From contig NC_087080.1 in the NCBI RefSeq assembly GCF_026151205.1, positions 817,812-877,811 of the forward strand: a DNA stretch of 60,000 bases, written 5' to 3'. The translations under genes were made by a program, and so were the position numbers. Source of the DNA: Bolinopsis microptera. Its lineage: Eukaryota > Ctenophora > Tentaculata > Lobata > Bolinopsidae. Under the pieces are notes generated by a model, which saw only the letters and a list, made by a program, of their open reading frames with translations, was not told where the DNA came from and did not search any database. Positions 9,191-51,145 of this stretch are shown here, in pieces (within the stretch, counting starts at the first letter, position 1; each line of letters starts with the position of its first letter).

Positions 9191-9194
9191 AGAT

Positions 9195-9404
9195 GATTTA
9201 GCAGGTTTGTGGTGATTCAGCAGGTTTGTGGTGATTTAGCAGGTTTGTGGTGATTTAGCAGGTTTGTGGTGATTCAGCAGGTTTGTGGTGATTTAGCAGG
9301 TTTGTGGTGATTCAGCAGGTTTGTGGTGATTTAGCAGGTTTGTGGTGATTTAGCAGGTTTGTGGTGATTTAGCAGGTTTGTGGTGATTTAGCAGGTTTGT
9401 GGTG
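9195..9404. repeat. 19-bp minisatellite, 11 copies
   Basis: The unit is GATTTAGCAGGTTTGTGGT, with a GATTC variant. It abuts the truncated 5' end of LINE 1. A half-copy-like sequence (GATTTAGTTTGTGGTGATT) is present beyond the 3' end of the LINE near 5880. Confidence 0.95.
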
Positions 9405-17828: not shown

Positions 17829-20800
17829 GTAAGCTGAACCCTCATCTTACCTGGTTACCTGGTTACCTGGTTACCTGGTTACCTGGTTACCTGGTTACCT
17901 GGTTACCTGGTTACCTGGTTACCTGGTTACCTGGTTACCTGGTTACCTGGTTACCTGGTTACCTGGTTACCTGGTTAATGTTAGGTTTCTGTTTCCGAGT
18001 TTTAGAATTGTGAGCAGAGGTTGAACCCTGCTGTGTTCTGATTGGTTAATTTGTGTCACGTGGTGTGAATACTGTGCTCTGATTGGTTAGTTTGTGTCAC
18101 GTGGGCAGAGGTTGAACCCTGCTGTTTCAGACAACCCGAGAGAGAGACCTCACTCTTACACCTACGGCGGTATATACTGCGTGTGTTTTAGAGTGATCTT
18201 TACTTTTAGCCTAAAAAATTATTTTTTAAATATCGCTAAATCGTGTGGCTGCAGAGTACAGAAATTGGGTACTTTTCGTGATCTTTGTAGAGTGAGCGCT
18301 GATTTTAGTATCTGTTACTCGGTGAGTAGTAACCGACCATAACGTTTTGATTTATATAATATTTACCGATCAACAAAAAAAAAGAAAAAAAAACGGTCAA
18401 CAAAATGTTGGAAGGTCTTATTCTATCTAACACGGGATACTTTCAGCTTCTTCGGGTAAATAACAGTTTGATTGTAGGTATTTTGTGGGCATTCTGTGCT
18501 ATATTGTGGAATGTAGTTGTGGCTTCTGGTGGCATCTGTCATCTTCTGGGCAGTTTGCGCCATATTTTGGCATTGTGCCATATTTTGGCATTGTGCCATC
18601 TTTTGGCATTGTGCCATCTTTGGCATTGTGCCATCTTTTGGCATTGTGCCATCTTTTGGCATGGTATGCGGTGTTTACAGAGGTGGAGTGGCATGATATT
18701 TTATAAAAACAAATATTTGCTTGTTGAATTAACTGACTTGGTTATGGTCTGCTGCGAGTGTCAAAGTAAGGTTTCTGTGAGATTGAGAGTTAGAAAATGA
18801 AAATACTGTCTCATTTATTGCGGTTGATTGCAGTAATTTGAACAACGTAGGAGAAGTGAATACGTGACTTTGGAAAGATTACTCAGGTCTTTAGTATATA
18901 ACTAGGTTATGAAAAGTAAGCTGATTAATAATAACTAAAAGGAAAGAGCAATATTAAAGTATTTTGTTCGATTACAAATATTAAAAATAAGTGTTAAATA
19001 TTATTTGTTTCACTGCACTCTGCTATACTAGAGTATTATCTGTTGTAATGTACCTAATAACATTAAGATTCTAAATACGGTTTGTTTACAGAGGAAAGTT
19101 TAACTGTTCACTTCTGCACGTGTAGCAGCTGGGTTCCTCAAATCACCATGGAAACAGTTACCCTACTACCGAATATCATGATTCATGCCATGTTGTAGAA
19201 ATACGACTCAGTTCAGCCTTTTGCAAATCTGCAAACAAAATGCCATGTTGTAGGAGTATAAAATGACTTTCTTTCACCATTTTTAAAATTCATTGACGGC
19301 CAAGAGAATAAAATGTGTAGGTGACCAAAAAAGGCTAAATTGGCACAATAAAAGTGCAGGGACCCCATAAGTGTGCAGCGGGGGCGACAGATTGTTTTTG
19401 GCGATAAAGTTCTAACTTATAGTTCCTATGGTAAAAGTAAATTACATTCTATGATAACATATGGTAACATATGGTAACATATGGTAACATATGATAACAT
19501 ATGGTAACATATGGTAACCCCATATCGGCACGTGTTGTACATAGAAAGGTGACTAGAAACAAACAATAGTAGCAATGTTGTGTCAAGTGGTGTGAATACT
19601 GTGTTCTGATTGGCTAGTTTGTGTCACATGGTGGTATATTCAATGAAAGTTGTGGTCAGCTCAGACCACGTAAAATGTGTGTGGGCTACGTGTTAAATTG
19701 TTTTGAACAGTGTTGAGAAAACCTCTTGTTTTCCTTGTGCTTCATGCACTGTAGCTCTGTGAAGGTGTAAACTCTGCTCATGTGTGCTCCAAAATATCTC
19801 AAAACGTGAATGTCAAAACGATTTCAAACTTTAGAGTGTCCAGACTTAGTGAGTCCAGACTAAACCGAAGTCCCTCGTGTAGACTAAAACGAGCCCATGA
19901 TGACAGATTTTGTACCATGGTACACAGAAAAGTCGGGATTAGAAATATATTTCATTCAGAAATAGCGTGCCATGAGGTAATATAGATATACATTTTAGTC
20001 AGGAAGGGACCAATTTAGGAATGGAGACTTGTGTATACTGTATAGATACACATTTGAGTCAGGAAGGAATACCTAAATCTGAGGAATAGGGCTTCACAAA
20101 TACCACCTATTACTGAAAATTTCTTTAGTGCGGCTATAGAGCTTCCCTTACGAACGGAGAGGTTTAACACGGTCGTGTTGAACAGGAGGATCACAACGGT
20201 TTAAAACTTGATGATCTGTGAAGTGAGCGTGAGGTGAGGTCACTGTGTGCGTTTTGAAATGGAAGGGAGAGAAATACTGTTGAGAAATTCCTGAGGAAGT
20301 CCCAGGGTTGAATGTTTTTTAAGTTTGCTCCTGGAAGCTGACGTAAGTAGTATATGATGCATCATATACTACTGACCTATACTGTTTGTTCTCCCTTGAG
20401 AAATGTAAAAAGTAACGCTCTGTCTTGTTGGAAATCAAAAAGAGAAGTTAAGCATGCTGCATCTAGAATATGATTTGGATTGAAGAGAACTTGTTCTTAA
20501 CTTATTGCTCCCTTCATCACATCTAACAGTTTCTAAAACTAAACACAAAGGAGTCCCTCGAATCATAATCCTTACAAACAATTCATTTCAGCTCGTCTAG
20601 CAGCATCAGCTATCAATTATTATACAAGTCTCACTAAACTAACATGTGACGTAATAGTGACGTAATAGTGACCTAATAGTGACGTAATAGTGACGTAACA
20701 TTTCAGCTCGTCTAGCAGCGTCAGCTATCAACGGACTGCAGATGAAGATAGACTTTGCAAGTGCTGCGCGCGGTCTGCGCAAGACTGAGAAGCGCGCTGA

Positions 20801-26800: not shown

Positions 26801-29800
26801 GGCCTTTGATGGCGGTCCGAAGTTCCTCTATTTCGATATCTTTGTCCAGAACTTCCACGAGTTCATGAACACGAAGTTCAGTCTTTCTGCGTTCCGTGAA
26901 GTCAGCAGTTTCTTCATTCGGGAGGGAAGGTTTTGAGTACAGCTCTTTGAAGAATTTACAGAAGTTCATCATATCGAAAACGTCCAGCTTTGAGCCATTT
27001 GAGGAGAAGCTTTTAAGTTTCTTAAAGCGACTCCAGTTTATGTCGCGCCCCTCGTCAACATCACGACAAAGAGATTCCACGAACTTGGCCTTCTTCTGTC
27101 TCACGAGCTTTCGATATTCGCGGCGTTTGTTGTAGTAGCTGTCTCTCAGTTCTTTATCAAGAGGACTTTTACCGTATGTTTTAGCTAATCGATTTAGTTC
27201 ACGTTTTTCGATGATGCAGGCAATATCAAACCATGGAGACTTCGGTTTTGCCCTTTTGTATCCCCGAGTTTTCCTATTGAGGGGTTTTTGTTTATGTTTT
27301 CTAGGTCTTGGTAGGGCCTGATCAGCCATATCACGATAAATGCCGACGATGTTTTCATTGAGCTTAATGACATCCTCCTTTTTTACGCAAACAGCTTCAA
27401 CCAGTTCCGCGATTCTGCTTGCAAACTGGGGTTCTTTTTGGACATCTAGGAACTGCTGTTTATTCTCTGAAGCATTCTCGTCCCATTTGTGTTTTATTGG
27501 GGCTGGCTGGAGCGAGGATAGAATTTCGTCCGGATCAATTATATAATTATGACTCAGTTTATGATGTAACAGTAACGCACACCAAAAAGGTGAATGAACT
27601 TTTGAATTTATGGTTTCCTACTAAATCATTGAAAAAAATAACATTGAAAACCAAAAACATCGTGGACCTAATCATTTACGATTAGCTGTCTAACTAGTCT
27701 ACTTACAATCGTCCTATATCAATAATATCTTACTATATATAAAGCGAGACGATATATATTATATATATATTTATCCGTGCCATTTTACTGACACCACAGC
27801 ATCAACTTTAACGCGACTTTCCGCAAAAACCGTAAATGATATAAAACTGAAACTTTTTTGACTGGGTCAAATGCTTTAATGGCCTTCAAATCAGCATGTA
27901 AAAATAAAAAATCGGCCAAGGAATAGGAATTTTAGAGCCCAAAATTTGGACCCCCAAGTGGTGTCAAAAACGCGAATTAAATAGGTAATCATTATTTTAG
28001 TCTCTTGAGTCTTGACACCATTTTAGGGTTATACGGGTTCCTGCTAGTGTGTATAATATATGTGCATAATAATAATAACATGAATAATATGTGTCGGGTA
28101 TCTAGATTTACAATTCCACTCGACCATTATAATAATAATATGTGGCCAGTAAGATTGTTGGTCAGAACATTGAGGAAACCTATATATGTGACATCATCTT
28201 GTTTAACATGAAAAGAAGACTTACCAGTAATCCAGACTTGGCACTTTAACACTCATGAGTTTATCCATTATAATATTCAAGTGAAACAAAGCGTGAATTT
28301 ATACGGCCTCCACTGAACCGACCACTTACTCGACTTCTGTCCAAGAATTTCCTGTTTTCCTGCTGAGCATTCATCCAACATTGTTACATGTCAGTTTTTT
28401 GTGCGTTTTCTCTGTGATTCTAGGCATGATGAGTGAGGAGACATGGTTTCTGGGTCCTGCTTCAAAACTTCATGACTCAATTTTTTGAGTTTGTCGGTCA
28501 CTAAGAATTGTTTCACTATGCGGAGAATGTCGTGAATTTTCTGGCCACGCTGTAATATTTGTGAATTTTTGTGTGTTCTCTCTACAAACTGTCTCCAGAG
28601 ACAATGTTATACTTTATTAGTCGTACTTGAAGGCTTCAGGACTGTCTTTTTGAAATTTTCTTGAATTAGGCATGAAATTGAAGAGGCTTTATTTATGTCC
28701 CGCTCTCATCAAAAATGTCTGCGCTTAATTTTGTAACTTTATAATCGATCAATTAAGGGGTACTAACCAGTGATTGTAAAATAGTATAGTTTAAAGAATC
28801 CCCACAATTTTCTGGCATTTCATCCTAACTCTAGCTCCAATCAGCACTGCAGTACCACATTCGAAAATTCTTTCGAATGTTTAAAATGTGTACGGTATAG
28901 TGTCACCCTGTGCTGGAACTCGAAATGTATACAGAACACTTACAAAAACTACCAGAAATTAGAAATATGATACAGCCAAGTATGAAATGGTAAACATCTG
29001 TCATCTGCCAAGGTACATGCCTGGATTTAACGGACGTTTTTATAGTGGTGTGGACAGTGTAGTTACCAACCTGGCACAGTGACTACAGTGAGTTGTGACT
29101 ATAGTGCGTTGTGACTACAGTGAGTTGTGACTACAGTGAGTTGTGACTACAGTGAGTTGTGACTACAGTGAGTTGTGACTACAGTGAGTTGTGACTACAG
29201 TGAGTTGTGACTACAGTGCGTTGTGACTACAGTGAGTTGTGATTACAGTGCGTTGTGACTACAGTGAGTTGTGACTACAGTGCGTTGTGACTACAGTGAG
29301 TTGTGACTACAGTGAGTTGTGACTACAGTGAGTTGTGACTACAGTGAGTTGTGACTACAGTGCGTTGTGACTACAGTGAGTTGTGACTACAGTGAGTTGT
29401 GACTACAGTGAGTTGTGACTACAGTGAGTTGTGACTACAGTGAGTTGTGATTACAGTGAGTTGTGACTACAGTGCGTTGTGACTACAGTGAGTTGTGATT
29501 ACAGTGCGTTGTGACTACAGTGAGTTGTGACTACAGTGAGTTGTGACTACAGTGAGTTGTGACTACAGTGAGTTGTGACTACAGTGAGTTGTGACTACAG
29601 TGAGTTGTGACTACAGTGCGTTGTGAGCACCACAGAAACTCTGTGAATAGAGCACATAGAGTCATTATTCCAGGTCTGATAGTCATTGTTCTGTGTCCGT
29701 GCCCCACTTCTAGCCCTGGACTTCTGGTCCACCTAACTTGACCACACACAACTTGATCACGGAAACCTGAGAATACTGAATAGTGCAGGTACCACGGGTC

Positions 29801-32800
29801 TCCTGCGGTTCTGGACTCCGGTTCCCCTGTGATAGTGCAGGTACCAGGGGTCTGGACTTGTCCCCGGTTCCCCTGTGATAGTGCACGTAAATTGCGGTCT
29901 CCATTGGTTTGGGATTCCAAATGTTAATGGCAATTATTTTGGCTCCTCGACTGTAAATCTAAATTTGCCCACCGGAATGAAACCAAGGAGGGCTCTAGAG
30001 GGCTCCCGGCTCTAGAACCCGATTTTAAGTCAAAGTCTGGGGTAATCCTTATCAGGGAACAACTCATTTCTGAGCGACCTATCTAGTGTTGTGGGACATG
30101 CAGTTTACGGAGGGTAATTGTAGATAAATCTAAACCGCTATACGCCAGTTCGGTCTTGCTCCTCTATACTTAGCATGTAATCAAGATAATGAGGGTCATT
30201 ACACGTGATGCCCATATAAGGTCATTAAGGGTGCTGAGAGTTCTGATTTGTAATCATATTCTTCCTCGTACGGCACTGGACTGCAGAACTGTATAACAGC
30301 TGACAATTAAAGAACCCTGGAATCATTGTGGAGAAAGATTACTTGAAAATTGGTATGAGATTCTTTGGAAGGGGGATATGAGCAATTAAATGTGGCTGAA
30401 GACGAGAATGAAGATATGAGTCTGTAACAATTAGTTAATTAGAAACGATTAGTTAATGGCTCAGTAATTGGTCTTTGCTTGTGTAGATCTTATAAGACTA
30501 AGAGGTATTGACTTTGCTGAGCGTGATAACAGAACTTAGAAACCGATTAAGATAATTAATCGGTTTCTAAAGAAAAAATCCAGTTCAAAATATATTATGA
30601 TGAAAGCCAACTTTTTGTTACATCATTTATATATTATACGTGTGCACTGTGCATTTAACTCTATCTGTACACTTTACACATTATCATTACTTGTTCATTT
30701 ATATGAGACAGCAGGGTCACGGAGATAAAAACAAATCAGCCAAACTTATTAGCAGAAAATATGCTTACATTACTTATACAATTGTTATATACAATATGTA
30801 ATTGGTAATAGTTATATAATAGTTATATAATTGTTATATAATTGGTAATTACCTACATATTATCCTTACAAAGAGCCGTACACATTGGACCCACTCTTTC
30901 AGACCGGCCTCTTTGTTCACATTTAAAATACAGATAAGTACAGGGTTGACCCTGTGTCAGGATCTTTTCTCATTTTAGATGAGAGTTAAGACAGCGTACC
31001 TATTACTAAAACTGTTCCCAGGAGTATGATATTCCGGCCAAACCCTTCTTGTCTCACATTATCCACTGCTTACTTACTTTACTTTGGGCGATCCTCAATC
31101 GAAATCCCATTCACTGTCTGCCTCCACACGTCTCGATCGCACATAACAGTTCGAAGGTCGTCTAACTGGAGCCCAGTGTCACGAGCTACTACGTCCAGGA
31201 AGGTGAGTGGTCTCCTTCCACGGCCGGATTGGGCAAGTCGCCAGGGGAGGATAGTGGAGATAACTTGGTCAGAAGCTCTCATGCAATGCCCAGCAAATCT
31301 GGAACGCCTCGACGCAACCACTGAGGCAATAGATGGAAGGTTGCCATAGATCTGCTTGAGGGTTGGATGTTTCTTCCACGAGATGTTCTTGGCCTTCATT
31401 AAAAGACGGGTGTAGCATCCGTTGAGGCGCTTCTCAAGCTGCTTGTTTATGGTCCATGTCTCTGATCCATAGAGCAATACTGGTTCTACACAGGCTCTAA
31501 AGAACTTGACTTTCAGTTGTTCGGAAATGCCAGAGGACCAGACTTTTTGCAGTTTAATACAGGCTGACCAGGCCATTCCTTTCCTTGTGTTGAAATCCTT
31601 TCTACTGTCCGCAATGAAAGAGCCGAGGTATTTAAAGTCATCAACCTGTTTAATCTGGCGGCCTGAGATGGAATGTAAGTCGACAGTGTCAGGGATGTTG
31701 ATGGTCATGAACTCGGTCTTAGAAGCATTCATAGCAAGACCAACTTGTGCGGCTGCATTTTCAAGGTCTGTCAGCAGAAGTTGGACTTGCTCTATGGTGT
31801 CTGACATTAAGGCCAAATCATCAGCAAAGTCAAGGTCTGTGATTTTGACCGCAGGCACTCTTCGACTTTTCCTAGGCACGATGGTAAGACCGAATTCTTC
31901 ACCCATGCAGCTTCTGAGGACATAGTCAAGGACGATGATGAAGAGAAAGGGTGCTAGAGTGTCCCCTTGGAGAACTCCAATAAGTGTCCTAAAAAAGTCA
32001 GTAAGGCCGTCGATGGTCTGGACACGAGAGAACGATGAGTCATAAAGAAGCCTGATAGCATCTACAAGTGGAGCAGGGATACCGTAGAGGGAGAGGATGT
32101 GGAAAAGGGCATCCCGGTTAATGCTGTCGAACGCTTTCGAAAAATCGACAAACACAATTGCGGCTGAGCGATTTCCGATCTTGCATTCCTCGAGTATACG
32201 ACGTAGGGCAAGGACCTGTGGGAGTGTGGATCTTCCTCTACGGAAACCATTTTGGTTTGGCCGCAAGAGGGGATCAATGAATGGGTAGATCCGGTTGAGG
32301 ATGAGCTTGTTAAAAACTTTCGCTGCAACCGGTGCCAGTGAAATGCCACGGTAGTTTCCTGGATTAGTAAGATCACCCTTTTTGGGGATAGGAATGATAG
32401 AGGCCGTTTTCCAGGCTTGAGGGATCACACCATCCATGAGTGCTTTGTTACAGAATCCGAGGAGGTTTTCACGTAGCTGGGGAAGCTTCCAGACTGAGGG
32501 AGGGATGCTATCTAGACCGGGTGACTTGGAGGACTTGGCGGACTTCAGAACCGTGTCGAGTTCTGACATGCTGAAGGATGAGCAGCTGATGGGCAGGGTG
32601 TCAGAGACTCGCTGGTTGAAGAAGGGGAGGGTGAGGTCCGGCGGAGGCTGTTCTGTGCCTAGAAGGGACTTGAAGTGCTCGAACCAGATGTTGAGCCGTT
32701 CTTCGGTAGTGCCTCCTGGCACTTTGCAGTATGGCACAGTGTCGGAAGATGTTAGTTGCCTGATGATGTGCCAGGAACTGCGATGCCTGTGCTCAGGGTT

Positions 32801-35800
32801 AGTTTTCTCCAGCCGGTCAGTCTGTTGTCGAATGTGCTGTGAAGTAGCAGCATTATAGGCTTCGTCCAGTTGCTTCTTTGCGTCTTCAAGCTTTTCCTTG
32901 GACGAAAAAGAGGGGGAAATCCTGTGACTCAGGGACGCATCCTTTAGGATATTACGATGGTGTGCAATATTAGGATCGTTGTAAGGATTTTCCCGTTTCC
33001 TCTTCCTCTTTTTTGGCAGCACCTTAAGTGCTGTGCTTGTAACGCTTTTAACGAGCAGGTCGTAGTCGGACTCGAGCTCTGCTTCCTCTAGGAGTGCACT
33101 GTACCTGTTTTTCACTTCCACTGCATACTGGTGTTTCATGATGGAATCGTGGATCAGTGGAGTCCAGTCAATGCTCCTAAGAGGGTCCCGTGCTGGAGTT
33201 TTGTTGACTCTGTAGCTGGCTTGAACAAAACATGTTACAATCCGGTGATCTGAACCGACAGTTTGCATGATGTTGTACGCTTGACAGTTCTTCACACTGT
33301 TTGCCCACTTCTTACGCCAGAGTACAAAGTCAATTTAATGCTTTGCTCTTTTGGGGTCTTCATAGGTCCAAATTTTATTAGCCGGTTTCTGGAAACAGCG
33401 GTTAGCAACTATCAGCTGGTGTTGGTCTACCAGATCCAGTAGTCGTTCGCCGTTGTCGTTGGTTGACTGATGGTATGTGAAACCGTAGCTATTACTGAGC
33501 TTCGCGTTGAAATCACCGCACACTGCTAGCATGTTGTGAGGAGGCACCTTAGAGATGATCCTGGTTAGAGCGTTGTAGAATGCAGTTTTATCTTCAATAT
33601 CACTGCAGTTAGTAGGAGCATAACATGAGAGGACTGTGAGGCGAGGATTCCCGTTTACATGGAGCAAGATGATTCTGCTATTAACTTTCTCTACAGATAG
33701 GAGAGATTTCTGAATTCTAGGAGATAAAAGAAACCCAACACCACCAACTGACGCATTAACTGAATTCTTCGTAGCAGAAGCAGTGATGAGCTGATATGAT
33801 AAGATGTTTTCAATTCTTAGGGATTCTTTGTGGTGTTGGCGATGCTCTTGCAAGGAGATAACATCATTATGATGCAGGAAGGCTGAGTGAGCTAACTCCT
33901 GTTTACGTGATACAGGGTTGAGAGTCCTACAGTTGAAGGTGCTAACCTGAAAAGGGGTTTTCCTACGAACTAAAAGGGTAGTAACAGGGTTGCTGCAACT
34001 ATCAGGACCCACCCCTCCCGAGGGTTTTAGGGAGGGCCCGTCATACAGGGAGCTAGCTGCCACTGAGTAGTTAGGGGCTTGAACCCTAGTGCTGTTATCG
34101 TGTGTCATCATAAAAGTGAGGGGGGATTTTGTCTAATGGCTAGACATTGTTCCAGGCACGGCGCCACTGCAACCTGGATGTGACACTATAATCCAATACC
34201 CTCATCAGTAGGTACAATCACGGGTGCAGGTCTTCATAAACCCGGCTTGTTTTTCGAGGTATGTGCTCCTCTAGATCCGCCGTGTTTAGTTGACCCAGAC
34301 AGTCGGATTCTTCAATGACATGCCGGTCTAGCAGGGTCACCTCGTGCAGGATGTGGCTCTTCACCACGCACGGACGGTCTAAGCTCGATCTAGAGTCTAG
34401 ACCGAGCCCTGGCCCATATTACAGGACCTTGAAACGGATCAGTTCAAAATGAAGCTGAACATGACCCTCCACTGCTTAGTATGGAAATATAATAAGATGC
34501 TGCCAGGTTTCTGGTACTTATTTTAAGAGTGAACAGCTTTGAGGATATTTTAAAGACCTGGAGTAAAATCATTCATGATTTTAACAAAAAATGGAACTTT
34601 AATGTTCAGTTGGCACTCTCTAATGATATAATCATAATAACCTCTAATTTCAGACGTTTGTGCTGGACTTCATCACAGAGTACTACATCTGGTGCGGAAA
34701 AGGAGTGCCTCTCTCGGTAAGAAAGAAGGCGCTGCTGCTTGCTGAAGAGGAATACAAGAGAAGCGTTGAGGAATGTCCCAGAAACCCTATCGTACCTCCT
34801 CAAGTAAGTGTCCCATAAAACCGCCTCTCTCTAAGTTAGCACTTAACAATTTTACATACTCCATACTGACAATATTTGTACCGTGGTCTCTGAACTAACA
34901 GGACATGACCCTAGGGAAGAAGAGCCAGTGTTGCCATGACAGCTGGAGCACTTCCCTCAACTGATGTACAGCGGAGGACATCATGTGCCAGTAGGGGTTC
35001 TGTTGATATGCCCAGCTCAGTAAAGCTACTTAGACGAACATCCAGCGCTTCTAGTAAAAGTAGGTGTTAGCGTGGCTCTGATAGGTTCTCTGAACGAGAT
35101 ATGGATAGTGTAGTCCAATATCTTGAGGCTCTGATTGGTCCTCTGAACGAGATATGGATAGTGTAATGTAATATCTTGAGGCTCTGATTGGTCCTCTGAA
35201 CGAGATATAGATAGTGTAGTGTAATATCTTGACCAAAGTGATAGGACTGTGAATAATACATCTCTACAAAATGTTAATAATATTATAAAGTTATACAAGT
35301 AGGCACGGGTTACACTAGTAAAGTTATAATGGTACTCAGTCATCAGTTAAACCTTAAATCATCTCTCCATATTTCATCACATATTATCAACAACGACAAT
35401 CCGAAAATCTCACCAGTTACATGCGTCGCTTACATACCCTACTTCCAACTTCTGAACCCCGTCTTAGAAAATCTAAAATCATCACCTCAACTCAACATTG
35501 CTACGATTAAGTGCTCCTTTATACTTTATGTTATAAATAATCAGGAAGAGTAAAGTTACTATATTTTCAGTGACGCAGCGTAGTATCAGTTCAGACAGCG
35601 TTGGAAATGCTAGAAAAGTTAGCGTTAATGTCCACTCCCGAGGCAGCATTTCGAGGGTGAGAACAAGATGATAATTAGTCAATTAGATAATTACTAATAA
35701 GATAATCATTAGACACAAATTACGATCACCCCAATATTCTTAGAGACACGGAATTTGGTTGAAATATGCAAAATTAGTGTGTACATCCTTTGTGGAATCC

Positions 35801-38800
35801 CTCGGGAATCAAATGCTCAATTTGAATACCTTAAAATTAAATTCCGCCCAGGTAAACTCAGAAACCAATCTGCGGAGGATGTCCTCGACCTCGACCAGCT
35901 CCTCCGGGGAACGCCGGCAATCTATCGCCTCCCAGGTACTAGCAACTGTAACCTAGCAACTGTAACCTAGCAACTGTAACCTAGCAACTGTAACCTAGCA
36001 ACTGTAACCTAGCAACTGTAATTCATGTGCAGTTTCCGGGACCGTTCACCTTTTGTTCCTAGTAACAAGTAAAATAGGTGGTAAGAGTATTAGCAGGGTT
36101 GGCATGATGTAAATCTCCTTATATGGGCATCACATGTAGGCTGGTTTCAGTTACACTCGGGTGTAACCTTATTACACGCGTATCACTAGTTATTACACGT
36201 ACATTTCCCATGTTACAGACACCCTCACAACTAGTTTCAAATGTCTCCTCCCACTCTATAATACTGGTACACTGGTTTGTGATAAGTTTATTTAGTAGTT
36301 TAGTGTAACTATGGTAACTAGAAGACGTCATGGTACACTGTTTTGGTGACAGCTACAGGGTCCTCTTCATTTGACACAGAAACCAAATAATCTTGTTATC
36401 TTTATCGGACTGTATTGTAACAAGCTAACACCTCAACTTTTAAAACACGAACACAGGTCCACCCCAAAAAGCAAACTTCCTTTGTTCCTTGGAACTCTCT
36501 AGAGGTTTCTTCAGATAGCCCCCTTTGTAACACGGTTATATCCCCAGGGAGGAAGACGCATGTCCACATCCAGCAGACGCTCCTCCTCTGTTTCAAACGG
36601 TCGAGGATCATCATCCCGCAGATCTAGTCTCATGAGCACGAACAGTGTGGACAGTTCGGGACAAACCAGAGGTAAGTTGAGCACGAACAGTGTGGACAGT
36701 TCGGGACAAACCAGAGGTAAGTTGAGCACGAACAGTGTGGACAGTTCGGGACAAACCAGAGGTGAGTTGAGCACGAACAGTGTGGACAGTTCGGGACAAA
36801 CCAGAGGTAAGTTGAGCACGAACAGTGTGGACAGTTCGGGACAAACCAGAGGTAAGTTGAGCACGAACAGTGTGGACAGTTCGGGACAAACCAGAGGTAA
36901 GTTGAGCACGAACAGTGTGGACAGTTCGGGACAAACCAGAGGTGAGTTGAGCACGAACAGTGTGGACAGTTCGGGACAAACCAGAGGTAAGTTGAGCACG
37001 AACAGTGTGGACAGTGCGGGACAAACCAGAGGTAAGTTGAGCCCGGACAGTGTGGACAGTGCGGGACAAACCAGAGGTAAGTTGAGCACGAACAGTGTGG
37101 ACAGTTCGGGACAAACCAGAGGTAAGTTGAGCACGAACAGTGTGGACAGTTCGGGACAAACCAGAGGTAAGTTGAGCACGAACAGTGTGGACAGTGCGGG
37201 ACAAACCAGAGGTAAGTTGAGCACGAACAGTGTGGACAGTTCGGGACAAACCAGAGGTAAGTTGAGCACGAACAGTGTGGACAGTTCGGGACAAACCAGA
37301 GGTAAGTTGAGCACGAACAGTGTGGACAGTTCGGGACAAACCAGAGGTAAGTTGAGCACGAACAGTGTGGACAGTTCGGGACAAACCAGAGGTAAGTTGA
37401 GCACGAACAGTGTGGACAGTTCGGGACAAACCAGAGGTAAGTTGAGCACGAACAGTGTGGACAGTTCGGGACAAACCAGAGGTAAGTTGAGCACGAACAG
37501 TGTGGACAGTTCGGGACAAACCAGAGGTGAGTTGAGCACGAACAGTGTGGACAGTTCGGGACAAACCAGAGGTAAGTTGAGCACGAACAGTGTGGACAGT
37601 TCGGGACAAACCAGAGGTAAGTTGAGCACGAACAGTGTGGACAGTTCGGGACAAACCAGAGGTAAGTTGAGCACGAACAGTGTGGACAGTTCGGGACAAA
37701 CCAGAGGTGAGTTGAGCACGAACAGTGTGGACAGTTCGGGACAAACCAGAGGTAAGTTGAGCACGAACAGTGTGGACAGTGCGGGACAAACCAGAGGTAA
37801 GTTGAGCCCGGACAGTGTGGACAGTGCGGGACAAACCAGAGGTAAGTTGAGCACGAACAGTGTGGACAGTTCGGGACAAACCAGAGGTAAGTTGAGCACG
37901 AACAGTGTGGACAGTTCGGGACAAACCAGAGGTAAGTTGAGCACGAACAGTGTGGACAGTGCGGGACAAACCAGAGGTAAGTTGAGCACGAACAGTGTGG
38001 ACAGTTCGGGACAAACCAGAGGTAAGTTGAGCACGAACAGTGTGGACAGTTCGGGACAAACCAGAGGTAAGTTGAGCACGAACAGTGTGGACAGTTCGGG
38101 ACAAACCAGAGGTAAGTTGAGCACGAACAGTGTGGACAGTTCGGGACAAACCAGAGGTAAGTTGAGCACGAACAGTGTGGACAGTTCGGGACAAACCAGA
38201 GGTAAGTTGAGCACGAACAGTGTGGACAGTTCGGGACAAACCAGAGGTTTTGACGTGTATGGTGGCTTTTTTTACACTTGTGTATGATAAAACTGCTGTG
38301 ATGTGTCTCTCCATTCGAAACCACTGCGCACTGTGACGTGTGATGTGTGAAGTGTGACGTGTGACTCAAGTGTGACACGGGGAGTGGTTTTGGAACAAGC
38401 GGGTTAATCACCTAATTTACCTTCCAAGTGATATGCTGTAACTATCATTACATTTTAGCTGGTGCTGACTGTTTGCTTGTACTTTAGATGTGGCAACGAA
38501 GTTGTAATTTCCTTAGTTGTCATTGAATTACGTGGAGATGTTATTTATAGAGATTAACCACTGTGATGTGTGATGTGTGATGTGTGATGTGTGATGTGTG
38601 ATGTGTGATGTGTGATGTGTGATGTGTGATGTGTGATGTGTGATGTGTGATGTGTGATGTGTGATGTGTGATGTGTGATGTGTGATGTGTGATGTGTGAT
38701 GTGTGATGTGTGATGTGTGATGTGTGATGTGTGATGTGTGATGTGTGATGTGTGATGTGTGACGTGTGATGTCATTGAATTACGTGGAGATGTTATTTAT

Positions 38801-41800
38801 AGAGATTAAACTTCCAGAAACATATTGGTGACAAATTGCAGAAATTTCTCGATGTAAAGTAAATCAGTATTAGATTAATATCCGACTGCTATCATTAAAT
38901 CACAAATATTACCTAAAAATATGTTAACTGAGTGGCGCGACTTTAAGTTTCCTGATGTTGAGCCTGAAACCTAACGCCCCACCTAATTCTAACTTTAAGC
39001 CCAGCCCTGGCCCTTACCCTAAACTTAACACCCACCTAATTCTAACTTTAAGCCCAGCCCTGGCCCTTACCCTAAACTTAACACCCACCTAATTCTAACT
39101 TTAAGCCCAGCCCTGGCCCTTACCCTAAACTTAACACCCACCTAATTCTAACTTTAAGCCCAGCCCTGGCCCTTACCCTAAACTTAACACCCACCTAATT
39201 CTAACTTTAAGCCCAGCCCTGGCCCTTACCCTAAACTTAACACCCGGTCCTTAACCCACATGACTCACCCTTTCTTCACCCTATCAACAAGTACTCAAAA
39301 TATAAGTTAAAATTCATTAGGACAGGAGTCAGCATCATTTAAAATATAAAAGTGTCTGCTCCTTTATAAAACTCTTTCTTTTTCAGGTCGGCGAGTAAGC
39401 GTGTCGATGAAACAACTCAGATCTCTTGTCTCAGGCTCGGGAAAAAGAATGCAATCTGAAGAAGGAACCATACAGGTAGAGATAATCACAGCTCGTAATT
39501 AGTAATTAGTAATAACAGGTAGAGATAATCTTAGCTCGTGTTTTTAAACAACAGTCAGAAGTAGTTACCAAATTAAAATTTAAATAACACAACAGAGCAT
39601 AATAATAATAATTCCTCTCGTTTTATTCATTTTAACCCTGCATTACATTCCACCACAACGTTAATATACCTGTGACAATGTTAATATACCTGTGACCACC
39701 AGGTTGAGAGACCGGACTGGGGAATCAACACGGTCACTATCCAGGGAAAGGAACCCATATCCCTCAGAGAGAAGTTCTCTGATTGGCCCGAACCCGGCAG
39801 AATGATCAAAATGAAGGGTGGGTGTTGTTATTGTTGAGCTGCTTGCAATGGCATGAATATTAATACCCCGCATAATTTATTCTAGTCAAGCCAGTCTGCA
39901 TAATTTATTCAAGTCATTCAGATTCAGCTGCGCATGACCGGTAGTTTGGTGTTCCATCTATCCCGGGCACATTTTGAATTGTGATGACATTTTTAATCGC
40001 TCAAACAAATTTTCGAAATTAAATAATCGTCGTAGGGCGTAGAGATGGGACACCCTTTCGTAATATCTATTATGGGCCAAGTGGTAAATTCGCTGCTTCT
40101 CATGAACTGATGTCATTTCTCCGCAAGTCCTTTACTGATAAAGTCCTGCGGCTCAGCACTTTAAGTTGACGTGTATTTTTATGAAGGAGTAAAGTTGACG
40201 TGTCACGTGACGTCTTATCAGAAAGTGATTGGATGATGGTTAACCACATGACTTAACAAAACGACCTGATTGGTTACTGTTATGTCACGTGATAAAGACT
40301 AGAATCTGGTGTTTAGTACTTTGTATTAAGTCCTGAATATAACGGAGCAGCTTTTAACTACGCATTAACTTACAAAGGATAAGCAGTCTGAAGATTGACA
40401 CAATGAATAAATATATTTGCAGACTTAAACGTGATATTTTGAACGTTTATACTTTGTATTCACTAATGTATAATGTATTCACCATGTATTCAATAAATTA
40501 ATAAGCATCTCCGTAAGATGGTATTTTTTGCTTCTAGCTAATATCAAAATAGCACAATGAAAAAGTAACCGGGATTATTAGCCGGGATTTTTAAAACAGA
40601 ATTTCGATCTTTATCCAATTTAGCAAATTATTACTTGTGCCACTGTTAAAATGTTCCATTTCAACATAGAAATATCGTGAAAATCCCGGTCCCGGACGGG
40701 ACAAAATTCCGATCCCGGTCGACCCCCACTAACCACTAACCTCCCCCTCTATTGCAGGCCACGCGGCTAGTGGTGACCAGAACCCAAGCTTACTAGCACC
40801 CTCACAACCCCTGGAACCGTACGATGCGGAACTCATGCACAGACCTCAACCAGCGGAGGAGGTGCTGAAACTTGAGTTTACCAAACTCGGTCGGGGCAGA
40901 GGTCAGCAGACAATTTAAATGTGATTTATCTCATTTTTGCAATCCTAATGCTTGTGTAATTAGTATGAATTAAGTGTGTCAAGAGTTTGATGGGTAATTG
41001 TTATTAATTTGTACGACCGTTTTAGCTACTGTCAACAATTGTCCAGACAGTTATTGTAGACAGCATTTAAAACGGTCAAATTCACGGTTCCTCTTTATCA
41101 ATTATATTCATATTTTAAACATGAAAATAGAAAATATTTCCCGGTCCTAATTTCGTTGACTCTCTTGCACAAGTTAACTACAAAATGTAAATATCAGCTG
41201 TTCTATTAACTAACCACTGAACTAACTAAACACTGAACCCCCTCAGGAACATTCAAATCGTATGACGAGGAGATAACAGTTCTGACAGATGATGTTAAAG
41301 TCTGGCTTGTTCACGAGTACAAGAACTACAAGCTCCCTTCCTCGTACAATCAGTAAGTAACGAAACTCATACTTATTACTCATAAGAACTCTGCTTTGGT
41401 TATTGTATTTTATTGAGATGGCCCAGGGCCCATATGATACGAATGATCATCCATACATCTATAAAACACTAATTAATTACTAATTACTAATTACTAATAC
41501 TATTTACTAACTTATCTTAATTACTAATTACTAACTTATCTTAATTACTAATTACTAATTACTAATTACTAATTACTAATTACTAATTACTAACCTACTT
41601 AATTACAGCATGCTGTACGCGTCTGAAGGATACGTTGTGAGATGGGAATACCATCTGGAGGTATTTGACGGGTTTGTGAGGAAACACAAGTGTAATCGGT
41701 GCGCTTACTATTTCTGGCAGGTTGGTGAAAACTTGTTGTTCTGTGCCCGACTTTCTCTTTCACTTTCTCTTTCTCTTTCACTTTCTCTTTCACTAAATCT

Positions 41801-44800
41801 AAAAAGTGACTTCATTTTTCTGTCGAATTTGTAAAAATTCAGCATTTCGTGTCTAAAAGGTACCTATTTGGCAGGGTAAAGAGTGTGAAATAAATTCTAA
41901 AGGAGCGACTGCTCTGATGACTGTAGAGTTGGACAAAGAGAAGGGTCCCCAGGTCAGAGTGGTTCAGAACAGGGAACCTCCGTCCTTCCTTAACCTTTTT
42001 AATGGTAAGTCAGGGGTTTATAATTCTACTGATTAGCACTCATACTTCCTTACTTGGGTTTTCCGTACCTTTTTATTGGATTTATTGGAAAAAGCATTGA
42101 AAAAGTATACCTTTTCATTGGACGTTTTTCCTTTTTTATTATAGAACATCTTCAGTCTTCACTCTGTAGTCTCATGTTCTTACACATTATACTATTACAA
42201 TCTGGCAACTAGTCTTTAATCTGATTCCTTTCACAAATAAATACTAAATAGTTATTAAGTTATATATAATATTGAATAGTTATTAAGTTATACACTATAC
42301 GAATATTATGTAAATCTATAAAACCCACCTTACAGGTAAACTAGTAGTCCGAACCGACAAACGGCAGATGTTGGGTCGGGAACCTAACCTGGGACGTAGA
42401 CAGTTCCCCACCAACACGGAGATGTACGTGGTTAGGGGCGAGTGTGCTGAGGAGGGACATCTTCATCAGATCCAGCCTAGGTTAGTTAGTTTCTCTTTCA
42501 CTTTCTCTTTCTCTTTCTCTTTCTCTTTCTCTTTCACTAACTAGGTTAGTTCTTGTGGGTAGTTAAGTGGGGACATCTTCATCAGATCCAGCCTAGGTTA
42601 GTTCTTGTGGGTAGTTGAGGGGGGAAATCTTCATCAGATCCAGCCTAGGTTAGTTCTTGTGGGTAGTTAAGTGGGGACATCTTCATCAGATCCAGCCTAG
42701 GTTAGTTCTTGTGGGTAGTTAAGTGGGGACATCTTCATCAGATCCAGCCTAGGTTAGTTCTTGTGGGTAGTTAAGTGGGGACATCTTCATCAGATCCAGC
42801 CTAGGTTAGTTCTTGTGGGTAGTTAAGTGGGGACATCTTCATCAGATCCAGCCTAGGTTAGTTCTTGTGGGTAGTTGAGTGGGGACATCTTCATCAGATC
42901 CAGCCTAGGTTAGTTCTTGTGGGTAGTTAAGTGGGGACATCTTCATCAGATCCAGCCTAGGTTAGTTCTTGTGGGTAGTTAAGTGGGGACATCTTCATCA
43001 GATCCAGCCTAGGTTAGTTCTTGTGGGTAGTTAAGTGGGGACATCTTCATCAGATCCAGCCTAGGTTAGTTCTTGTGGGTAGTTAAGTGGGGACATCTTC
43101 ATCAGATCCAGCCTAGGTTAGTTCTTGTGGGTAGTTAAGTGGGGACATCTTCATCAGATCCAGCCTAGGTTAGTTCTTGTGGGTAGTTAAGTGGGGACAT
43201 CTTCATCAGATCCAGCCTAGGTTAGTTCTTGTGGGTAGTTAAGTGGGGACATCTTCATCAGATCCAGCCTAGGTTAGTTCTTGTGGGTAGTTAAGTGGGG
43301 ACATCTTCATCAGATCCAGCCTAGGTTAGTTCTTGTGGGTAGTTAAGGAGGGACATCTTCATCAGATCCAGCCTAGGTTAGTTCTTGTGGGTAGTTAAGG
43401 GGGGACATCTTCATCAGATCCAGCCTAGGTTAGTTCTTGTGGGTAGTTAAGTGGGGACATCTTCATCAGATCCAGCCTAGGTTAGTTCTTGTGGGTAGTT
43501 AAGTGGGGACATCTTCATCAGATCCAGCCTAGGTTAGTTCTTGTGGGTAGTTAAGTGGGGACATCTTCATCAGATCCAGCCTAGGTTAGTTCTTGTGGGT
43601 AGTTAAGTGGGGACATCTTCATCAGATCCAGCCTAGGTTAGTTCTTGTGGGTAGTTAAGTGGGGACATCTTCATCAGATCCAGCCTAGGTTAGTTCTTGT
43701 GGGTAGTTAAGTGGGGACATCTTCATCAGATCCAGCCTAGGTTAGTTCTTGTGGGTAGTTAAGTGGGGACATCTTCATCAGATCCAGCCTAGGTTAGTTC
43801 TTGTGGGTAGTTAAGTGGGGACACTTATAGTTTCACTGATGGCTTGCACTTTGTATTTAGTAGTCATATTATCGATCACGTACTGATAGCTTGCACTTTG
43901 TATTTAGTAGTCATATTATCGATCACGTACTGATGGTTTGCACTTTGTATTTAGTAGTCATGTTATATATCACGTACGATGAGTACCCTGTGATCGGACT
44001 AACAACCTGCGTGTAGAACTAAAACCCAACGTATCATATTTCCTCGATTAAATTAATACTGCTTAAAATCCCATGGATCTGTCTAAAGTATTTAATATAT
44101 ATTATATAATCTAATATATCAGGTTCTATAAATATAACATTAATTATAAGCACTGTGTATCAAAACAATACCCACATTGGAAACGTTATAAGAGAATTCA
44201 GCAGTGCGACTGTTGTTCTGATCTAGCAACACATTGCACCAATTCCACCACTTTGCACCTTATTGCACCTCATTGCACCACTTTACGCTAAGTCTCATCA
44301 CAAAGAGTCTGAGTTAGACTGGGGCTTGTAAGGCTTTTAGTAGGCTTGAGATTTATTGACAGTACTGGTGTTTACTGCAGGTGTTTCAATAATCCCGGAC
44401 TGTGAAGTAGCACTGTTACTGGAATATTATGTGCTAAACGCTTATTGTTATCGTATTAGACTCTGAGTATACTCATGAAAGTAGAACCAAAACGGATAAA
44501 GTGAACCAGTCTGAAGCGGTTAGCGGTGGTTAGGAGCGGTTAGCGGTGGTTAGGAGTGGTTAGAGACCAGCTTAATATCCTGTGGTGATGTTAACCCATG
44601 TTGACCCACGTTTCACTGATTGAATCAAGCCCTAAATCCGACCTGTGAAGTTACGACTGGATGATTGCCGCTGTAATCCACCTCAATTATCTCGTTAGAG
44701 AGAATAAATGGAATTATGTTTTGTGTGCAATTTGATTAACATGACTGAGTGCTTACAGTATGGACTTTGGTAGGCTTACTTTCTGCCAAAACAGTGACGT

Positions 44801-47800
44801 GACGGACTAGTTACAGTGTTACAGTTGCTTGGATTAGTTCTGTAAATACTGTTACTTTTCTTAAGTTAATTCACTAATACCAGTTATTTATGTTCTGTGT
44901 AAAAGCTGACAATAACTGAAAAACAAATCTGTTATCTGATAAAGGCATCAGTAAGGATTTTTTGTAAAAGTTTAGCAAAGAGACAAACCTAGCCCAAACC
45001 CTATTCAGTAAAATGTTTAGACAAACGTGTGGACAAACGAGCTAAATTCTCCGAATATTTTGATCATTCTCTGAATATTTTGATCAGAAAATGTAAAATG
45101 TACACTCTTTACACAAGAATTCCTAGTAGTACATAAGAGATCCTCTTCTCTTATAGTCTTATGTCCTAGCGACATGTTTGGACAATAACCTGGTATATAT
45201 TGAATAGTAACCTGGTATATATTGAATAGTAACCTGGTATTTATTGAACAATAACCTGGTATTTATTGAACAATAACCTGGTATATATTGAATAGTAACC
45301 TGGTATTTATTGAACAATAACCTGGTATTTATTGAACAATAACCTGGTATTTATTGAACACCAAGGTTTGATAACCATTATTCCACAGGATGGGATCCCT
45401 ACGCTCAAGAGGTTGTTTTATCGTGGTGTCACCTGACCAGGCTGTCTACGTTTGGCTCGGAGCCAAGAGCACGCCTCACCAGCGCGAAAACGCTCAGAAA
45501 GCTGGAAACGAAATCGAGGACAACTACATCAGTGACAACTTTAGGGTTGTTATGGTAGGTTATATTTAGGTGTCTTATTGTTTTATTTTAGATTAAAATT
45601 TAACACTCTAACCTCGTTGTCTAAGTGCAATCTCAAATAATACGATAAATTTGTTTATTTTGCGGCTATAACATTGTACTGGAATCAGATATAATAAAGT
45701 AAGATATACAGATATTATAAAGAATAATAACACAAACCTGCTTGTTCAGGTACACGAATCAAAGGAACCCTCCAGTTTCTTCACCAGTCTTGGTCGACAC
45801 GAGGACTACAGTCCCCTAGTTGGCTCCATTGACTCTCACATCTACACCCCACGTTTATTCCGGTTTGATAGTACCAGTGGGAAGTTCGTGGCGGATGAGA
45901 TACTGTGTAAATACCGTGTACCTGACCGAGACACCCAGTTCCCCTTCATCCAGGTGAGTTACCACTAGTTACCACTAGTTACCACTAGTTACCACTAGTT
46001 ACCACTAGTAACCACTAGTAACCACTAGTTACCATAGTTACCACTAGTTAGACACCCAGTTCCCCTTCATCCAGGTGAGTCGTGTGGACTTTTAATTTGT
46101 TTTAATATAGTCAAATTCCATTTATATTTGTTAATATTAGTATTATTATTATTTTGACAGTTGCGGTTGTAACTTAAGATTTGAAATTTGCATTCCTTGT
46201 ATTGCTTTAAGAAGGGGCGCCGGGTGAGAGTGTGTAGTGTGTGTAGTGTAGTGTAGTGAGAGAGATGTTCCAATGTTATAATGTTAGTTCTCTCTTGCTT
46301 GATTAGGTCATTTTACTTATTCATCACTTTACTACCGACCAGTGACCATTTGACAAGTCATCAGACGATGAATCATTCGCGTTAAAGCTGAAAATCAAAC
46401 AATCGTTTAAAAACCATTTTAACAACCTTCGCCCAACTTAAGCATCTGATCTAACACGACTAACTCCCTTCTCACAATCACACATTCCCAAACTTAAATA
46501 ACTTTTAAAATGAAAGCAACTGAATTTCAGGACGATCTGTACGGATCAAGTCAGCCTGCCCTCTTCCTGTTAGACGCTAAATACCAGCTTTGGTTGTGGC
46601 AGGGATGGTTTGAAACTGCGGAGGATTCCGAGAAAGTAACTGGGTCCGCTCGACAGACGTTCGCACGCAACAAGAAGGTTGCTATGGAAACTGTTAACAA
46701 CTATGTCGATGGTGAGTTTATTTTTAAACCAAAATTTACACATTTGAGTGTTATGCGACAATTTCAATCATTTATACCCAACCTGGCCATATTTTGTTGA
46801 CTAACAATTCTAATAATGTTTTATGGTTAATATCGTTTAAAAGGTTTTATACAAAAGTAGTGACTCTAATTTTACGTGTGTCACTGTGTCTAGTATAAAC
46901 ATTAAACCTACTTCGCTCAATTGACACTCTCTCAGAGATGATGCTGGCAGAAAACCCCAAAGTGTTCCCGATTGAAGCTGGTTACGAACCCGTTGATTTT
47001 ATCTCACTTTTCCCGTTCTGGTCGGAAAGAGAGGACGTGAAACGTTACGGCAACAAGGTACGTCTTCAACACTCGTGCCTGAGTATTCTTCCAGCAAATA
47101 TTTTGCACAATGTCTCGGCGTTGTTTTATGAGTTGATGACACTTAGTTTAGCGCCCGGATAGAAAACGTAAAGTAAGTGAATCGTTCACGGTCTAATTAC
47201 GCTACTGGCACCTGACGGCACTTATAATTACATAATCTACGTTTCAGGCAATTGTTGAAAAGGGTGCGGGTGGTCGCCGAACATCTATTAACACAGCCTA
47301 CAAGATGTTAACACGAACAGAATACACGTTGGAGGAGCTCAGGTTGAACCGAAGCCAGAGGGAGTAGATCCCTCAAGACTGGAGGACTATTTGTCAGAGG
47401 AGGAATTTATGGTATGTTTACAGACCGCGAAAAGATAGCCCTAATCGTAATCGCAATGCATGATCGTAATTGGAAAAATTCGTGTCTAAAGGCTTATTTG
47501 AAAGTGTGTATTAAAAGGAACGCGCCAAGTTTTGTAATGTAAAAAAGTCTTCTATCGTTAGCGCTTATTTATGCGCGCTTCCTACGCGCGCAGCATGTTT
47601 ATTGTATTTCCCACATATTGTTTAAGAACCACATGTGTATTCCCTTTTTCACATATTGCAATTGTCTGGTAAATATACTGATCTCTAACTACGGACACGT
47701 CTTTTCCTGTTTTAGTGTACAATATGCCGGAAACTGCCTGTAACTTTGTCCAATATAATACATTGCACATTCTAATAATCTTTTCCCTTTCAGAAAGTGT

Positions 47801-49001: not shown

Positions 49002-51145
49002 ATGCAGATGTCCATACATCTGCTGATAATGATGGTGCTGGTAGCTGGCAAGACTCGAGGTGATCAGCTATTCTCTCCTTTTGATCATGGGGTAATTGGA
49101 AAAGTATCTGAACAGTTTCTACAGGATCTGGCAGACGAGATAGCCACAATGATTTCAGATCTAATGCAGGTAAGATATTCAACGTTTATAACACTAATTG
49201 TAATTATAAACACTATAAATAGACGAGTTCTTTGTCACAGTTTTGCTGCGTCTCGGGTTAATCATTGGGCAAAATAATCATTTTTGTAAAATATAAATAT
49301 AATACGCTTTCGGTTGTAAATTTTGTTATCAATCCACTATACGTCTGGTTATGAAATAAAGTAACATATTCTTCAGGGAGAATCACTCAGTGGAAGTGAC
49401 TGTAGTGGTGTGGACGCGTGTGACTACGATATAAACGTAGGCTCACTGAATCGCAGTCCTAATATCAATCTTAAACACGATGGAAGCGATGGACCTGTTG
49501 GACAGCTTGTTGTAGACGCAAGTATTGGCGGGTCAATTGAAGCGTCCGGAAGCTGGAGCGTGGAGAAGAAGATATGGTTTAAAACTTTCTCTTTAGCAGG
49601 GCATGTGGATATCCTCGCTACCGAGTTCAGTCTGGAAAACCGCGTTATTCTCGGACGCAAGTCAAACGGACAAATTGGATTTTCCCGTGGCCTGGACACC
49701 TGTAAAGCAAACGCAGGATCTCTTAACATTAAGATCAGCGGTTCTTGGCTCAGCTGGCTACTCAACGTTCTTTCTCAGGTCTTGTCAGGTTAGTTACCAC
49801 TAGTAACCACTAGTTACCATAGTTACCACTAGTTACCATAGTTACCACTAGTTACTACTAGTTACCACTAGTTACCACTAGTTACCACTAGTTACCATAG
49901 TTACCATAGTTACCACTAGTTACCACTAGTTACCACTAGTTACCACTAGTTACCACTAGTTAACATAGTTACCATAGTAACCACTAGTTACCACTAGTTA
50001 CCAATAGTTACCATAGTTACCACTAGTTACCACTAGTTACCATAGTTACCACTAGTTACCATAGTTACCATAGTTACCACTATCTGTCAGGCCAGGTGGA
50101 GAGTTTCTTGGAGGAATTAGCTTGCGAGGAAGCTAACGAGGCTATCGATGAAGCTCTACAAAAGTTTGAAGAGACTGTGTTTAACAAGGACCTCTCGCTG
50201 AATCTAACATCGGGAGGAGAGTTGAAGCTGGATTTCCATCCCTCTCTTATCACAGGAGGGGACGAATGTGCTGTCATTGTCGCACCAGTGCCAATTGAAA
50301 TGATCGGCCAACCGAAGCCTTCCGAAACAGTGACGCCACCGTTCATCAACATTCCGGCTGACGTGGACGAGATAGAAGAAGTTGAAGAACTCAGAAGAAA
50401 GAGAGAGGTTAACCAAGACTGGTGTGACGTGGTTCCAGGCTCAAACAGCGGGGTTTCTGTTATAGTAACAGAGAATATGATCTCTAGAATAATCCAAAGT
50501 TTGCATCTTTTTGATTTGATGAAGTTCAGTTTGAAGGAGAGTGGCAGTTTTGGCAGCAAGAGGAGGTTTGATGTGTTTCGTGGTGGACAACACTTAAGCA
50601 CGTTTAATGTGGAACTTCCGGACGAAGTTCAGGAGTTGGCTGCCTTTACTGTAACTGATATGAAAATAAGCAGTACCTCAATACCTGAGGTTCAAATCAC
50701 TAGCAGCGGAGTTTCTACCACAGTCAACCTCAGAGCAAGAATGATTTTGTCCAATGAATCCCCACAAGTCGAGATGAGAACGGAATTCGAATCCAAAGCT
50801 AATTTTAAAGGAACCGTCAAATTAGCTAAAAGAGATGGACGATACCTATTGCTGCCACAAGTAACTGCGAATGTTGACGTTTGGACAGGGAAATTGTATG
50901 TTGAATCTGAAGATGGTCAGGACTTCAAGGAGTTAGACGACGGCGACGAATTGTTGGAGGTCATTGAGCATCTTTTAAATGCTGCGATAGAGGAAAGCCT
51001 GGCAAAGCTGTTGGAAGAAGAAGTGAAAGACGGCATTCCGATAAATATACCAAGCGGGTTACTGTCTATTGGAGAGGCTGAGATCATTTACCAGGAAGAC
51101 TACATCCTGATCAACGCCGATGACATTAGTATCAAACTTGAGTAA
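49002..51145 (+). CDS. LBP/BPI/CETP-family secreted lipid-binding protein
   Basis: There are three exons, 49002-49169, 49377-49788 and 50091-51145, with phases 0 and 1 and a total of 544 residues; family members are usually near 480. Start ATG 49002 is chosen because a hydrophobic signal peptide follows (IHLLIMMVLVAG). BPI-family features: the Cys of DTCKANAG and of ELACEEANEA, placed like the conserved disulfide pair; a Pro-rich turn TPPFINIP between the two lobes; SRIIQSLHLFDLMKFSL at the start of the C-terminal lobe; and the C-terminal IPSGLLSIGEAE...YILINADDI. BPI/LBP proteins bind lipopolysaccharide or other lipids in a boomerang-shaped tubular fold and act outside the cell, often in antibacterial defence. 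Odd points are an acidic insert (DVDEIEEVEEL) ending in RRKR at residues 295-298, and an intron (49789-50090) made almost wholly of decamer repeats. Confidence 0.87.
49789..50080. repeat. 10-bp array TTACCACTAG filling a BPI-like intron
   Basis: About 30 units of AGTTACCACT with ATAGTTACC variants begin at the donor (TCAG/GTTAGTTACC) and continue to within 10 bp of the acceptor at 50091. Virtually the entire 302-bp intron is repeat. Confidence 0.95.

Follow-up and report, generated by a model that had tools for sequence, protein, structure and literature searches.

A 45-bp splice-junction minisatellite at a supervillin exon of Bolinopsis microptera, with other multiplied junctions in the same gene and genome

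In the 60,000-nt stretch of Bolinopsis microptera DNA analysed here (the window), the end of one coding exon is repeated in tandem together with its splice donor, in a single open frame, which raises the question of whether the gene makes a series of proteins of different lengths or discards most of the copies with the intron. Our preferred reading, to which we give a probability of roughly 70%, is that the array is a splice-junction minisatellite produced by slippage or unequal exchange, in which the first donor is mostly used and the array is tolerated. The features concerned are collected in Table 1.

Table 1. Exons, arrays and copied splice junctions of the supervillin gene (positions in the window)
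Position	Strand	Feature	Basis
20584..20617	+	Extra copy of acceptor (at 20590) and start of exon 20707-20897, CATTTCAG/CTCGTCTAGCAGC	sequence
34915..35059	+	Linker exon	tblastn
35571..35656	+	Linker exon	tblastn
35852..35935	+	Previous linker exon; a 14-bp array starts 3 nt into its intron	tblastn
36548..36671	+	124-nt coding exon (phase 0 to 1), its final 39 nt forming the exon portion of the repeat unit	Mnemiopsis alignment
36633..38248	+	45-bp minisatellite, 35.9 copies, in coding frame	TRF, motif search
36672..38207	+	35 consensus donors at 45-bp intervals, with GT from 36672 (first) to 38202 (last)	motif search
38208..38248	+	Copy 36, CAGAG/GTTTTG, donor consensus lost	sequence
39387..39475	+	Next exon, acceptor partner of the 45-bp array	join seen in P0001 and P0113
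42336..42480	+	Supervillin exon; its end and donor, CAGATCCAGCCTAG/GTTAGT, also multiplied	sequence
42541..43823	+	52-bp array, 24.7 copies; 24 further copies of exon end 42480 and donor	TRF
45750..45953	+	Supervillin exon with duplicated end	sequence
46051..46080	+	Second copy of exon end 45953 and donor, GACACCCAGTTCCCCTTCATCCAG/GTGAGT, 121 bp downstream	sequence

Exons 34654-47880 encode a gelsolin repeat (PF00626), a DUF7904 domain (PF25480) and, on the last exons, a villin headpiece (PF02209), and the same 506 residues score 361 bits against a supervillin-like protein of Actinia versus 124 bits against the best solved villin. Judged from these sequence matches, with gelsolin repeats followed by a villin headpiece and the closest similarity to named supervillins, the gene is a supervillin, as the preliminary description had proposed. 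Three long open reading frames with a reverse-transcriptase match lie on the minus strand of the window (6279-9197, 24795-27617 and 31082-33334), the latter two between supervillin exons 24144-24297 and 34654-34803, and an open reading frame beside the supervillin gene (49365-49790) has a weak LBP/BPI/CETP match that is below the cut-off.

That the array-bearing exon is a genuine one had also been claimed, and this is borne out by the annotated Mnemiopsis leidyi protein ACHWQZ_G016940 (P0113), which shares 91% identity in the 260 residues used for the search. In P0113 each of the five linker exons is represented, with the residues of the 45-bp unit once only; its segment SGRRMSTASRR...LMSTCSVDSSGQMQ aligns with exon 36548-36671, and it joins this single-copy exon end to the same next exon. 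Since P0113 has the same exon end and the same join, this exon, with its end, and the partner exon are real. The match of this exon rests on the alignment and not on tblastn, which at E<0.01 listed the other four of the five linker exons in the window when queried with P0113, and Mnemiopsis enters the comparison through this annotated protein. The join to the next exon is present as well in P0001, a 99% identical protein that was the only one returned by a search with the linker, a longer query adding P0113 and a distant gelsolin-type protein (P0114). The last unit of P0001 ends in QTK, which is encoded by none of the 36 copies of the array, and its source allele may lack the arrays; the join is seen in two proteins, neither of them from the allele analysed here. 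The start of P0001 at DSSGQTK could be read as a break that repeated units in RNA produced during assembly, but this was set aside, since the length of the contig's 3' end also fits other readings.

The 45-bp period found by TRF on the window shows 98% matches, and each unit comprises 39 nt of exon end (36633-36671 in the first copy) followed by the first six nucleotides of the intron, GTAAGT. The motif CAGAG/GT[A/G]AGT occurs at exactly 35 sites on the plus strand of the window, all at 45-bp spacing (31 with GTAAGT, four with GTGAGT), and at none on the opposite strand; all 15 of the matches listed in the one assembly examined fall inside the array. When each of the 35 donors was joined to position 39387, an in-frame mRNA without a stop was obtained in every case, in agreement with the preliminary description.

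The same gene contains further copied junctions (Table 1), so that the array does not stand alone in this genome. Use of a downstream donor brings a premature stop with 24 of 24 donors in the 52-bp array and with the single one of the 121-bp copy; a full-length protein therefore needs the exon-proximal donor at both places, and this is the join that P0001 uses at both. Of the 21 donors and 21 acceptors of the supervillin gene, three and one, respectively, have extra copies nearby, as against none of 171 exon-internal 20-mers, although within the window as a whole the rate of repetition among junction 20-mers (4/42) does not exceed that among intronic or intergenic ones (100/559). These 20-mer tests are approximate for three upstream exons, 20705-20893 having been used for 20707-20897 and 21374 for 21373, and the end of exon 24144-24297 being uncertain relative to Mnemiopsis. 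Short arrays start a few bases from donors at 35939-36021 and 45957-46050, and perhaps at 24298-24408 and 49791-50082 (CTAGCAACTGTAAC, AGTTACCACT, GTAACCACTA, TAGTTACCAC), the donors beside the latter two being uncertain. On the minus strand, 53250-53393 holds three copies of a 58-bp tandem unit with an acceptor-like site, CCAAAACTCACCCACAG/TT, and an open frame (FRRLDKPNTGEVDWWSF...) starts after the last copy, beside an open reading frame with an EF-hand match; this is probably another junction array.

Across the genome, triples of the donor motif AGGTRAGT with gaps of 15-45 bp number 2793, 13 times the 215 counted with the reversed motif, while single donor motifs number 19232 versus 15615, and triples of the acceptor motif TTTCAGG 1504 versus 313; these are counts of overlapping windows rather than of arrays, to which big arrays contribute most, and the reversed motif is their sole control. 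Twenty-four arrays were sampled from the matches listed, starting with contig C1 (7 donor-motif arrays and 17 of 18 acceptor-motif arrays), and by reading, six of the seven and nine of the 17 look like coding junctions. Among the former, L042 appears intronic, and three (L039, L041, L043) lie in genes on the strand opposite to that of the searched motif, with CTCAG/GTACTT junctions and an acceptor, so that the search led to donor arrays in the intended sense in three of the seven (L040, L061, L062). Ten exon pieces (L041 left out) were compared with Pfam: matches were above the cut-off for UQ_con (L064) and deaminase (L068), at the cut-off for zf-Di19 (L076) and below it for copine (L043) and sushi (L061, L040), with none for the pieces given from L062, L039, L069 and L073. 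Three of the 17 acceptor arrays are in this way supported (L064, L068, L076), six show no more than a plausible open frame (L065, L067, L069, L073, L077, L078), and in eight a clear exon was absent or not reached (L063, L066, L070, L071, L072, L074, L075, L079). L064 (G000:C1:19562300-19563400), in a ubiquitin-conjugating-enzyme exon, is a 45-bp acceptor array that is in frame and open, with at least seven sites in the fetched stretch; L061, which reads into a TGA, and L040, with a 34-bp unit, are not in frame and open in this way. In L077 (G000:C1:25355200-25356300) the acceptor array is followed by tandem copies resembling a short stretch of exon plus donor. Junction arrays thus recur in the B. 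microptera genome at both donor and acceptor junctions, as shown in supervillin and in the sampled loci; an excess at junctions is suggested by the genome-wide counts, and within the window there is none.

In kind the locus has precedents: tandem repeats across exon-intron boundaries are known in lancelets under the name of mirages, and repeats spanning splice sites are known in human and fission yeast genes. According to the paper on lancelet globins, the mirage units of Adh3 measure 10-72 bp, and either boundary can be hit with regular splicing retained; the PGBD5 paper likewise reports retained splicing. The mirages of Adh3, the globins BflGb6 and BflGb9, PGBD5 and troponin C resemble the arrays of Bolinopsis in having units that contain the exon-intron boundary, many of them with AG/GT, and in affecting donor as well as acceptor sides; in the lancelet the mRNA is reported as normal despite the extra sites. 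The 45-bp array has the same two properties, since its tandem units lie across the boundary and 35 of its 36 units carry AG/GT within a full donor consensus, and it is therefore a mirage, or splice-junction, minisatellite. It differs in number, BflGb6 being described with six and three units in two haplotypes and BflGb9 with one duplicate, compared with the 35 donors found here; unlike the mirages as described there, its donors are near-identical and all in one open frame, and it belongs to another phylum.

Work on intron gain by the Rogers model (ATP2A1, potato RdRp, and the fission yeast SPOG_01682/SOCG_00815 with 24-bp units) likewise describes tandem AG/GT copies, which could create introns or retained units; those cases, however, mostly copy an exonic segment to yield a new intron, whereas the supervillin array copies the donor of an existing junction, and in the comparison with Mnemiopsis by protein alone it shows no sign of a new intron. 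In human segmental duplications, variable internal tandem repeats also alter splicing at boundaries, with 27 intron modifications reported, but as described there the repeats are shorter (on average 30 bp, four copies), belong to primate gene families and do not include arrays with tens of equivalent donors. In the open-licence literature no account was found of a gene having 35 donors, nor any related title on ctenophore tandem repeats at splice sites or introns. The 45-bp array is accordingly of a known kind, with many sister arrays, yet it is an unusually large in-frame case.

As to its splicing, the array would have arisen by slippage or unequal exchange, the 39 exon and six intron nucleotides in its unit being a matter of chance; the spliceosome would define the exon from its acceptor, 124 nt upstream, and mostly pick the exon-proximal donor, and the remaining 34 copies would be removed with the intron. 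The array would be tolerated because it changes little. The argument is taken from the other multiplied donors of the gene, where all 25 downstream choices bring stops, so that a mostly one-unit mRNA is predicted at the 45-bp array as well. Occasional use of a later donor would add multiples of a 15-residue spacer, which would be harmless here, since among the three multiplied donors only this array is in frame and open. Selection need not be invoked for the in-frame unit, because the unit lengths sampled vary and another in-frame array exists in L064. The idea that splicing occurs within the array, each unit being a 45-nt intron, was discarded, as by eye no pyrimidine tract precedes the AG.

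It is possible, although we consider it unlikely, that use of many donors among the 35 gives rise to a ladder of supervillins with 0-34 extra 15-residue spacers in a linker rich in kinase sites (not 0-35, as initially counted, since the exon always holds the first copy). The absence of stops in all 35 frames fits such a ladder, as does the strong consensus kept by every donor, in which the sole variant is A or G at the third intron base; the near identity of the units, however, means that recent expansion explains the intact donors. A spacer would fall in a linker that is Ser-rich and full of RxxS motifs, as had been pointed out (28% Ser, and 18 RxxS/T motifs in the surrounding 176 aa), but the repeat itself contributes no such site. 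Against a ladder, moreover, the annotated Mnemiopsis protein has one unit, and the gene's two other multiplied donors permit a full-length protein from the first site only. A ladder is thus possible but not our first guess, and the array cannot yet be taken as evidence for a family of different proteins.

Less probable still is that the array is shorter in the animal than in the assembly, through an artefact or over-counting. Shifted by 17 units, the array matches itself over the 850 bp compared with no mismatch, a perfect doubling, so that the copy number may be either very recent or a matter of assembly; in addition, the frame slips by one base against P0001 at 47342/47343, before the villin headpiece, through an assembly error or a variant, which indicates that small changes of this sort exist. 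Arrays of similar size are, however, read elsewhere in the genome, and 1.6 kb is short for long reads such as the PacBio data reported for the Bolinopsis assembly, whose annotation is said to have drawn on Iso-Seq (PMC10232365). Least probable of all, by a small step, is a preference for the last donor, with a main product of about 35 units and 510 extra residues: duplicated-donor and minigene experiments in mammals often favour the intron-proximal of identical sites, which would predict a late donor, but the internal exon would then measure 1654 nt, and the 52-bp array of the same gene cannot be spliced in that way without a stop.

A much stronger interpretation would be that splice junctions in this comb jelly are birth hot spots of minisatellites, rather than places where these are merely tolerated, and that open units of a multiple of three are read as a heritable protein-length ladder that varies with copy number. 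We regard this as improbable; if it were true, the supervillin donor array and the acceptor array of L064 would be the candidates. With 35 near-identical donors on a natural exon and, elsewhere in the gene, a 52-bp array that breaks the frame, the locus offers a test of the choice between first and last donor that requires no minigene. If the recurrence of junction arrays is properly counted, mirages would no longer be a peculiarity of lancelets but a feature that recurs among animal genomes, and these arrays would become a possible source of intron change and of variation in protein length.
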